A stretch of DNA of 64,000 bases, from the NCBI GenBank assembly GCA_027036135.1, contig JALVSY010000016.1, forward strand, positions 1-64,000, read 5' to 3'. Both the position numbers and the translations under genes were made by a program. The notes beneath the pieces were generated by a model that was not told the DNA's origin, made no database searches, and worked only from the letters and a program-made list of their open reading frames with translations. Below are positions 51,295 through 55,563 of this stretch, in pieces (within the stretch, counting starts at the first letter, position 1; each line of letters begins with the position of its first letter). This DNA is from Pyrodictiaceae archaeon (GTDB taxonomy: Archaea > Thermoproteota > Thermoprotei_A > Sulfolobales > Pyrodictiaceae).

Positions 51295-52347
51295 TTGCCA
51301 TTGCCGCTCTGTATAAGATGTGGTAGAGAAGTACACTACTTGGTTGACGGGCGTTTATGCCCAGAGTGCTATCTAGAACTTTATGGTTTTGGTAAGGCGC
51401 CAAGTGAGATAACAGTAACAATATGTCCTCGTTGCGGGAGCTATAGGTTCCAAGGGAACTGGTACCCCTCTCCCGGCGGGATTGAGGATGTTGTAGCTCT
51501 CGTGTTCCAAGCTGCATTTAAGCCAACAGAGCATACAGAGTACTATCGAGTAAGCAGGGTAGAGATAGACTATGAGAACAATAAGGCGATAGTCACTGTT
51601 ACTGGGAAGCTGAGGGGCGATACAAAGGAGAGATCAGCGACGTATGTCACGCGGCTCATAATAAAGAAGCAATTATGCCCAACCTGTCTAAGAAAAGCCT
51701 CTGGGGCGCCATCAGCTATAATACAAGTTAGGAGCTATTACGGGAAACTAGGCGAAGAAGAACGACTAGCTGTTGAAGATCTGCTAGGAAGCCTTGATAC
51801 AGGTCTACAAGACGCGATAATATCAACTAGCGAGCTCCGCGAAGGCATTGACATAAACCTACTAGACCATAACGCGGCTCGAGTCATAGCAAATAGATTT
51901 AGAAGCCGACTAGGCGCCCTTATCAAGGAGAGCCATAAGCTAATAACGCAGCGCCGAGACGGGAGAAAAGTAACGAGACTCACACTCTCAGTCCGGCTTC
52001 CCTTCTTCGCACCTGGGTCACTAGTTGACTATAAGGGCTCACTTGCAAGAATAGAAGACATAGACAAAGGATACGTGCTACTAAGACCGCTAGGAACTAA
52101 GAAACTGCGCAGACTCAGAGTAGAAGAAGCATGGCGCGTTCTCAGCGAGCCAAAAGAGCTAGAGAAAACCAATGTGGTAGTAACAGCGCTTGAGCCTGGA
52201 TGGGTACATGTACAAGAACTCAGCGGCGCCTATAACTATCTAGAGCTACCACGCTCAGATATCATACTGGAGGGTGATGTTAGGCCGGGAAAAGATGCGC
52301 TCCTCATAAAATTCCGGGACAAGTACTATATAATCCCACGTGACTAA
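51295..52347 (+). CDS. nmd3: NMD3-like ribosome export/assembly protein
   Basis: A 350-residue archaeal NMD3. The N-terminal zinc-binding region has LCIRCGREVHYLVDG, LCPECYLELY and ICPRCGSYRFQG, and a further CPTC follows. In eukaryotes NMD3 takes the 60S subunit out of the nucleus; in archaea it is expected to bind late large-subunit particles. TTG start at 51295. It lies 48 bp from the divergent amidohydrolase. Confidence 0.92.
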   Translation: MPLPLCIRCGREVHYLVDGRLCPECYLELYGFGKAPSEITVTICPRCGSYRFQGNWYPSPGGIEDVVALVFQAAFKPTEHTEYYRVSRVEIDYENNKAIVTVTGKLRGDTKERSATYVTRLIIKKQLCPTCLRKASGAPSAIIQVRSYYGKLGEEERLAVEDLLGSLDTGLQDAIISTSELREGIDINLLDHNAARVIANRFRSRLGALIKESHKLITQRRDGRKVTRLTLSVRLPFFAPGSLVDYKGSLARIEDIDKGYVLLRPLGTKKLRRLRVEEAWRVLSEPKELEKTNVVVTALEPGWVHVQELSGAYNYLELPRSDIILEGDVRPGKDALLIKFRDKYYIIPRD

Positions 52348-54149: not shown

Positions 54150-54185
54150 ATTCTGTTCAGAATCTGAGCAGACTCAGATATAAAG
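54150..54185. promoter_or_regulatory. Two abutting palindromes and a TATA box between divergent genes
   Basis: ATTCTG-TT-CAGAAT (54150-54163) and TCTGAG-CAGA-CTCAGA (54163-54178) are perfect inverted repeats that share one base, followed at once by ATATAAAG (54178-54185). The rightward gene (AbrB-like) would start transcription near 54205-54210, with the palindromes just upstream of its TATA box, and the box read leftward could serve the hypothetical gene. This is the layout of an operator for a dimeric repressor. Confidence 0.6.
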
Positions 54186-54238
54186 CTTTCTTCCCTTACT
54201 CTACTCTGAAGCTGGGTAGAATAACCTTGGCGGGTGTT

Positions 54239-54400
54239 GTGAGGCTAAGAGCTAAGCAGACTAAACCAGGATATCATAGCTACGAGATTACCCTGCCAAA
54301 AGACCTTGTAGAGCTCCTAGGCTGGCAGCAAGGAGACAAACTAGTAGTCGAGCTCCACGAGAAGAGTGGCAAGAAGGGATTATTCATCTACAAGCCCTAG
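54239..54400 (+). CDS. AbrB/SpoVT-like DNA-binding protein
   Basis: A 53-residue protein: GYHSYEITLPKDLVELLGW then QQGDKLVVELHEK, the swapped-hairpin AbrB pattern (strand, LP, helix, W-x-x-G-D-x-L). GTG start at 54239, or an in-frame TTG at 54227. Too short for most callers. It lies directly downstream of the paired palindromes, so it may autoregulate. A second AbrB-like gene lies at 37144, but their N-termini differ. Confidence 0.7.
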   Translation: MRLRAKQTKPGYHSYEITLPKDLVELLGWQQGDKLVVELHEKSGKKGLFIYKP

Positions 54401-54407
54401 GAAGGGC

Positions 54408-54484
54408 GGCCCGCGGGGATGATGAGCGCGGCAGGATCGGATCCGTGAAGAGCGGACTTAACGCTGACCCTGAGCCCGCGGGCC
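54408..54484 (+). ncRNA. C/D-box small RNA with an unusually long terminal stem
   Basis: The element is bounded by a perfect 10-bp inverted repeat GGCCCGCGGG/CCCGCGGGCC (54408-54417 and 54475-54484). Box C ATGATGA is at 54419-54425, box D' CGGA at 54438-54441, box C' GTGAAGA at 54445-54451, and box D CTGA at 54464-54467, with a second CTGA at 54470-54473 beside the stem. Guide regions of 12 bases (54426-54437 and 54452-54463) have the standard archaeal length, and the region is much richer in G+C than its flanks. It likely directs 2'-O-methylation; targets not searched. Confidence 0.8.
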
Positions 54485-54602
54485 ATTTAGTATGGGTAAT
54501 GGCACAGTCGCGGATAAGCTTACCGCTGCGTAGGGACCAGCGAGCCAAGAGATAAACTAGTAGCTGAGAACGTGGATTATCTCCTATACGCGGAGTTGGG
54601 CC

Positions 54603-54797
54603 GTGGATGCTACTGTGCTCCCCCGAGCAGCTAGAGAGCTACGAGAAAAACACAACGACATAGCCAGGCTATTCTACAAAGCCCACCTCGAGGGCAGAGG
54701 CGATAAGGCATCCATGATCCTCGCAGACTGGCTACTAGGCGAAATAGACAAGAAGGAAGCACTAAGAAAACTAAAACAACTCCTAGGAGAAGAATAG
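54603..54797 (+). CDS. 64-residue helical protein
   Basis: A 64-residue all-helical protein that I do not recognise, with ASMILADWLLGEIDKKEALRKLKQLL in its second half. GTG start at 54603. It follows the C/D-box RNA by ~120 bp and precedes the ribbon-helix-helix operator. Its ADWL motif recalls the helical protein at 53797-54123. Confidence 0.5.
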   Translation: MDATVLPRAARELREKHNDIARLFYKAHLEGRGDKASMILADWLLGEIDKKEALRKLKQLLGEE

Positions 54798-54821
54798 AAA
54801 CAATAAGCTAGCCCATTGTTA

Positions 54822-54850
54822 TATAGAGGCCAACTAGTCCTCTATAGAGG
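54822..54850. promoter_or_regulatory. Operator-like palindrome ahead of the RHH gene
   Basis: TATAGAGG (54822-54829) and CCTCTATA (54839-54846) are an inverted repeat, and the second half belongs to a perfect 12-bp palindrome CCTCTATAGAGG (54839-54850). A further half-site CTCTATAG lies at 54873-54880. The repeated CTATAGAG core fits a ribbon-helix-helix dimer array. A TATA-like GTTATATAG at 54818-54826 overlaps the first half. Confidence 0.55.
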
Positions 54851-54899
54851 GGTATGGATTCTTCTTGGAGAGCTCTATAGCCTTATATATGGGTAGTGG

Positions 54900-55169
54900 G
54901 TGGTGCCTTCCTACTACAAGGGTAGGCGTAGCTACTGTTTCTGGGTGGACGAGGACCTGTTCATAGAGCTGGATAGGGTTGTCGAGGAGATGGGCTACAG
55001 GAGCCTATCCGAGTTCTACAGGGAGCTAACCAGGGAGATTGTAGCGAGCTACAAGGCAGTACGTAAATTTGGCCTCAGGGGCCAGGAAGCCAAGCCATTC
55101 GTATTCGAGTACGTGAAGGAGAAGCTACTAGGCATGCTCAAGGCAAAGAAGAGGAGAACACAGCGCTAA
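54900..55169 (+). CDS. Ribbon-helix-helix DNA-binding protein
   Basis: An 89-residue RHH protein: a basic strand (RRSYCFWVDEDLFIELDRV), then helix-turn-helix-like RSLSEFYRELTREIV, as in CopG/MetJ-fold regulators from crenarchaeal viruses and plasmids, and a basic C-terminus (KAKKRRTQR). GTG start at 54900. It probably binds the CTATAGAG sites just upstream and represses itself, which is inference from position and symmetry. Confidence 0.8.
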   Translation: MVPSYYKGRRSYCFWVDEDLFIELDRVVEEMGYRSLSEFYRELTREIVASYKAVRKFGLRGQEAKPFVFEYVKEKLLGMLKAKKRRTQR

Positions 55170-55306
55170 GCAGCAGAGTTAGCTTAACTACCTGAGCCCC
55201 GCACCCGATGAACTCTCATTCAAGCTCCTCTTGGCGAGGCATTCCCGCCTGTCAGGAGAGGCTATCTACGCGTTAACCACAAATTAGACTCCACAAGTAC
55301 TCCCAA

Positions 55307-55563
<257 letters not shown>

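Follow-up and report, generated by a model that had tools for sequence, protein, structure and literature searches.

Archaeal C/D box sRNA genes commonly lie 3' of an open reading frame, a position described as lacking a promoter of its own (PMC7994747). The closest described systems are those of Dennis et al. 2015 (PMC4644070), where the passages concerned report that guide modules duplicate and recombine within an archaeal genome. The examples in those passages are duplicates within one species, presented without a mobile-element context, and they include the Methanopyrus kandleri groups sR39/119/88 and sR56/103, related sRNAs that have one guide in common and differ in the other. In mammals, according to the passage on Weber 2006 in PMC7994747, snoRNA retroposons are a comparable case, in which genes for guide RNAs spread in the form of mobile sequence and become diverse. 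The same 2021 review stated that mobile features of archaeal C/D genes remain to be discovered (PMC7994747), and our search of open-access text turned up no description of an archaeal virus that carries a C/D guide.

In this study, we analysed a 64,000-nt stretch of DNA from a heat-loving archaeon of the Pyrodictiaceae (the window), which contains a C/D box sRNA gene among accessory genes. The sRNA is like those in the passages of Dennis et al. in its boxes, two guides, 16S targets and signs of duplication with guide-module exchange, whereas its family differs from them in having a 10-bp GC stem as scaffold and copies that lie in a provirus or beside integrases (PMC4644070). Unlike the M. kandleri groups as presented there, the syntenic copies of two congeners have kept the scaffold here but differ in both guides. 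In contrast to the mammalian retroposons as summarised in PMC7994747, spread here appears tied to site-specifically integrating DNA elements and not to retroposition. We consider it quite probable that the window encodes a dual-guide C/D sRNA directing 2'-O-methylation of 16S rRNA, and that it belongs to an accessory mobile family carried on elements that integrate at tRNA genes.

Architecture of the sRNA

The gene extends from stem to stem over positions 54408-54484 of the forward strand, on which all its elements are read. The 5' strand of the terminal stem (GGCCCGCGGG, 54408-54417) is the perfect complement of the 3' strand (CCCGCGGGCC, 54475-54484), with 10 of 10 pairs, in agreement with the initial annotation. 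This stem brings together boxes C and D, which lie near the ends, while D' and C' are internal and near each other. Box C (ATGATGA, 54419-54425) fits RUGAUGA. Box D' (CGGA, 54438-54441) departs once from CUGA, and a related fragment (L121) has CTGA at this place; box C' (GTGAAGA, 54445-54451) follows after a 3-nt gap, departs once from RUGAUGA and is kept in the copies with 12-nt guides. With the first CTGA (54464-54467) taken as box D, the D' guide (GCGCGGCAGGAT, 54426-54437) and the D guide (GCGGACTTAACG, 54452-54463) each span exactly 12 nt. Every box and both guides were thus recovered where they had been annotated.

The full C/D'/C'/D pattern occurred once when both strands of the window were scanned, and not at all in 200 mononucleotide shuffles. 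No Rfam C/D family matched the sRNA at the gathering threshold. Across the ten copies described below, the terminal stem was paired in 99% of cells, and at one stem position four copies have G-C in place of C-G, both partners having changed; this covariation is modest evidence, because the remaining pairs hardly vary. Its architecture, together with the conservation of the stem and a pair of in-register complements to 16S, makes 54408-54484 very likely a C/D box sRNA, and the activity predicted from sequence is that of an ordinary C/D methylation guide.

The initial annotation had also described two CTGA boxes competing for the D position. Both are present as sequence, the second at 54470-54473, but their competition was not borne out. 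A guide set by the second CTGA would have an 18-nt spacer, its best rRNA match covered only 7 nt (in 16S), and no match of at least 7 nt to 23S was found. The second box is also not conserved: some copies have lost or changed it, among them the same-guide copy of G014, from which it is absent. The first box, in contrast, is intact in 8 of the 10 copies and altered in two. We therefore rejected the second CTGA as the guide-defining box. In one copy (C30p) the first D box reads CCGA and the second box abuts the stem, so the choice of box may have shifted there.

Predicted targets in 16S rRNA

Because the genome bin of the window is without 16S, we took 16S from three relatives with complete genomes (G014, G004 and G007). 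The search for rRNA complements to 54426-54437 and 54452-54463, which the initial annotation had proposed as a check, showed that both guides match 16S over 10 pairs. For the D' guide, CGGCAGGATC (54429-54438) forms 10 contiguous Watson-Crick pairs with 16S 10-19 (GATCCTGCCG) at the 5' end, a run counted with the adjoining C54438, into which the pairing continues. For the D guide, CGGACTTAAC (54453-54462) forms 10 contiguous Watson-Crick pairs with 16S 1044-1053 (GTTAAGTCCG), the target being given as GUUAAGUCCG. The fifth nucleotide is paired in both duplexes, and the predicted sites at this position are U15 for the D' guide and A1047 for the D guide; the latter corresponds approximately to E. 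coli A1092, by anchor counting. The predicted duplex energies were -19.8 kcal/mol (D' guide) and -16.6 kcal/mol (D guide). An alternative fit of the D guide, to 16S 829-840 (11/12, one mismatch, -15.4 kcal/mol), would place the site at A833.

A run of at least 10 Watson-Crick pairs to 16S was attained by 0.3% of random 12-mers from the window, and both guides have one; shuffled versions of the D' and D guides reached a run of 10 in 1.1% and 0.3% of cases, respectively. Methylation of 16S at the predicted sites is likely. The same D' guide to the 16S 5' end also occurs in a C/D sRNA of another archaeal family (L350, G097:C49:16366) that is otherwise different in sequence, suggesting a recurrent methylation target. 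Matches to GGACTTAAC...CTGA were also seen in other genomes, and those outside G000 (the genome of the window) and G014 had no C/D boxes on inspection; they are therefore no proof that the D guide is conserved.

A patchy family with variable guides

The contig of the window is part of a 2.2-Mb genome in 40 contigs (G000), whose p97-type ATPase has its best matches in Pyrodictiaceae genomes. DNA and covariance-model searches identified ten long-stem copies of the sRNA in three Pyrodictiaceae genomes: four in G000, three in G002 and three in G014. The G000 copies comprise the window sRNA (contig C16), a 97% identical copy on C2 and an inverted pair on C30. The same searches found no long-stem copy in the complete genomes G004, G011 and G005; weak covariance-model matches in G007 and G012 were rejected for want of clear boxes. 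The family thus combines a constant scaffold with a patchy distribution and guides of several types.

The guides for U15 and A1047 (type A) are found in the window, C2 and G014:200495 copies. At the locus of G014 that is syntenic to the window (G014:2145135), the U15 guide is shared and the D guide fits 16S CGGCAACGAGC near 1052. A third D guide is common to G002:C23 and G014:589697 and matches 16S 1341-1352 at 11/12 in G002. The minus-strand copies on C30 and on C297 of G002, which come after AbrB paralogues, have D' guides that fit 16S around position 1024. On each of these contigs, two convergent copies lie ~180 nt apart, an arrangement kept in both genomes (L115:8003-8353, G000:C30; L116:2699-3051, G002:C297), near tRNA-Glu(TTC) and, on C30, alongside a VapBC-like pair.

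Comparison of the window sRNA with its syntenic copy in the congener G002 showed that the guides are identical at 9 of 24 positions and the scaffold at 52 of 53. The flanks at this locus agree at 126 of 170 nt on the AbrB side and 282 of 312 nt on the downstream side. The AbrB side of G002 resembles the C30 paralogue, which suggests recombination between copies at separate loci. The AbrB-like gene of G002 differs too and is C30-like, so exchange of a whole cassette is possible and a swap of the guides only is uncertain.

Association with integrative elements

In G014, which belongs to another genus, a guttavirus-like provirus of 14,569 bp (~14.6 kb; G014:C1:188878-203446; L417, L118) harbours the type A copy. 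The provirus is bounded by 56-bp perfect repeats, one of which begins inside tRNA-Glu(CTC) (188850-188927), the other lying at 203391-203446. G011 and G005 have the empty site, with an intact tRNA-Glu between conserved flanks and no insert. The provirus encodes an SSV-family integrase (phrog_5127, E=7e-9) whose stop codon is 37 nt before the sRNA. About ten of its proteins are collinear with those of Aeropyrum pernix ovoid virus 1 (APOV1; Betaguttavirus, Guttaviridae; HE580237), for example at 55% over 672 aa (a 683-aa protein) and 48% over 321 aa, and its genes include a DnaA-like ATPase and a glycosyl-hydrolase-99-like gene. The integrase gave no tblastn match to APOV1. Direct repeats at a tRNA gene, an integrase and empty sites in relatives indicate that this copy is cargo of an integrative element, and APOV1 homologues in consistent order together with the SSV-type integrase mark the element as a Guttaviridae-like provirus. 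We regard the provirus-borne copy as solid comparative evidence. A pattern scan of APOV1 itself revealed no C/D sRNA, whereas the provirus has one directly after the integrase.

The window sRNA follows a 57-aa AbrB/MazE-like gene (54227-54400, forward strand; PF04014, E=7e-6) whose stop codon is 7 nt before it, and the two are probably co-transcribed. Related AbrB-like genes lie upstream of sRNA copies at four other loci. On a reading of the sequence only, a TATA-like element (GATATAAAGC, 54177-54186, forward strand) precedes the gene. A near-palindrome (GCGGATAAGCTTACCGC, 54510-54526) on the 3' side of the sRNA is recognisable at the other AbrB-linked copies and in C2. A 20-nt repeat (AGAATCTGAGCAGACTCAGA, 90%) occurs at 54159-54178, just 5' of the AbrB-like gene, and at 52100-52119, and is a possible operator.

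An N-terminal fragment of an SSV-type integrase, int(N), lies 0.8 kb from the window sRNA (55277-55549, forward strand; PF07935, E=3e-6; phrog_5127, 6e-4). It extends into tRNA-Ala(GGC) (55487-55563, reverse strand), which lies at the edge of the islet and is a probable integration target. The fragment is kept in G002 and G014, and the islet is common to both. No second att site for the islet was detected within the window. SSV-type integrases carry the recombination site inside their own gene, which is split upon integration (PMC8371274), and we therefore read the islet as most probably an old remnant. Between the sRNA and the fragment, 54603-55169 contains two small ORFs without a significant Pfam match; this stretch is present in G002 and absent from the syntenic G014 locus.

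A wHTH gene precedes the C2 copy by ~34 nt. The 12.7-kb contig on which this copy lies also carries tRNA-Ser and an SSV-type integrase (PF16795, 7e-20; 31% to SSV2), and a second att site was not found on it. A CRISPR-like array (repeat GCTCTTAGTCTTGCTTATTTTAAAC) is located at the end of this contig (L114:12481-12742, G000:C2). The link to mobile elements is accordingly stronger than could be seen for the initial annotation: int(N) lies at tRNA-Ala, the C2 copy shares its contig with an SSV-type integrase, and a same-guide copy lies in a provirus.

We also searched viral sequences. The exact scaffold had no match in IMG/VR viral contigs. Degenerate scans of IMG/VR gave 27 full-pattern matches, which were rejected, as visual inspection showed no terminal stem and their matches to rRNA were all short; none of the loci retained from other degenerate scans had the full C/D'/C'/D pattern. 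BLAST of the sRNA against phages returned chance matches only.

Discussion

Boxes, guides, rRNA complementarity, copies, provirus, att repeats and empty sites were read directly from the DNA; the pathway that we propose from them is conditional. The window sRNA would be co-transcribed with the upstream AbrB-like gene, trimmed, and bound by L7Ae, Nop5 and fibrillarin, and the particle would direct 2'-O-methylation of 16S at U15 through the D' guide and at A1047 through the D guide, with A833 as a possible second target of the latter. In the family, a single long-stem scaffold would be combined with different pairs of guides, directed for the most part at 16S. Integrative elements inserting at tRNA genes, including the guttavirus-like provirus, would carry it, element remnants such as the window islet would retain copies, and guides may be exchanged by recombination between copies. 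Several observations weigh against this reading: D' is CGGA and not CUGA, the first D box is altered in two copies, the targets were located in the 16S of relatives, the scaffold was not found in IMG/VR viral contigs or, by pattern, in APOV1, and the window islet is a remnant in which no second att site was detected.

The most serious competing explanation is that this is an ordinary chromosomal C/D sRNA gene that often duplicates, its presence in the provirus and next to integrase fragments being incidental hitchhiking with no role for the element. The passages cited from PMC4644070 document that guide modules duplicate and recombine inside one genome, the sites predicted in 16S are conserved and ordinary, and 3 of the 10 copies have no integrase within the flanks examined. 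However, all three type A copies are associated with SSV-family integrase genes or fragments, and the family is patchy and was not found in complete congeners. We therefore consider this explanation plausible but the less probable one. Position after a gene raises a different possibility, in which the main function of the GC-rich stem and the K-turn would be that of a 3' UTR element for the preceding gene (an mRNA stabiliser, a terminator or an L7Ae-controlled switch) and the guides would be secondary. The short distances to the AbrB-like (7 nt), integrase (37 nt) and wHTH (~34 nt) genes agree with it, but such a location is common for archaeal C/D sRNAs (PMC7994747), and a 3' UTR role does not demand two 10-nt matches to rRNA; we judge it improbable.

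It is more improbable still, and in our view hardly credible, that the copies are a MITE-like DNA repeat with GGCCCGCGGG as terminal inverted repeats and incidental C/D boxes. The copies are indeed multiple and short with perfect inverted ends, and the C30 and C297 loci each hold two in inverted orientation. Against this, the 12-nt guides are in register with rRNA targets and the boxes are retained in almost all copies; guides that vary while boxes stay fit an RNA function. Homology also extends beyond the stem in several copies, and there is no obvious target-site duplication. A methylation guide on integrative elements remains our preferred reading. A further proposal, which we put forward tentatively and think rather doubtful, is that archaeal viruses and integrative elements bear interchangeable C/D guides that would redirect host methylation to chosen 16S sites, reprogram or stabilise ribosomes in infection, and spread and swap guides among hyperthermophiles; a selected viral role of the sRNA is only a hypothesis.

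Archaeal C/D guides evolve fast although rRNA is conserved. A guide RNA inside a provirus of defined ends whose site is empty in relatives, together with scaffold-sharing copies that bear other guides, makes the question of mobility directly testable. It raises the questions of whether mobile elements seed and exchange guides and whether viruses mark host ribosomes. These findings suggest that mobile DNA may transport tools that chemically mark the ribosomes of its hosts.
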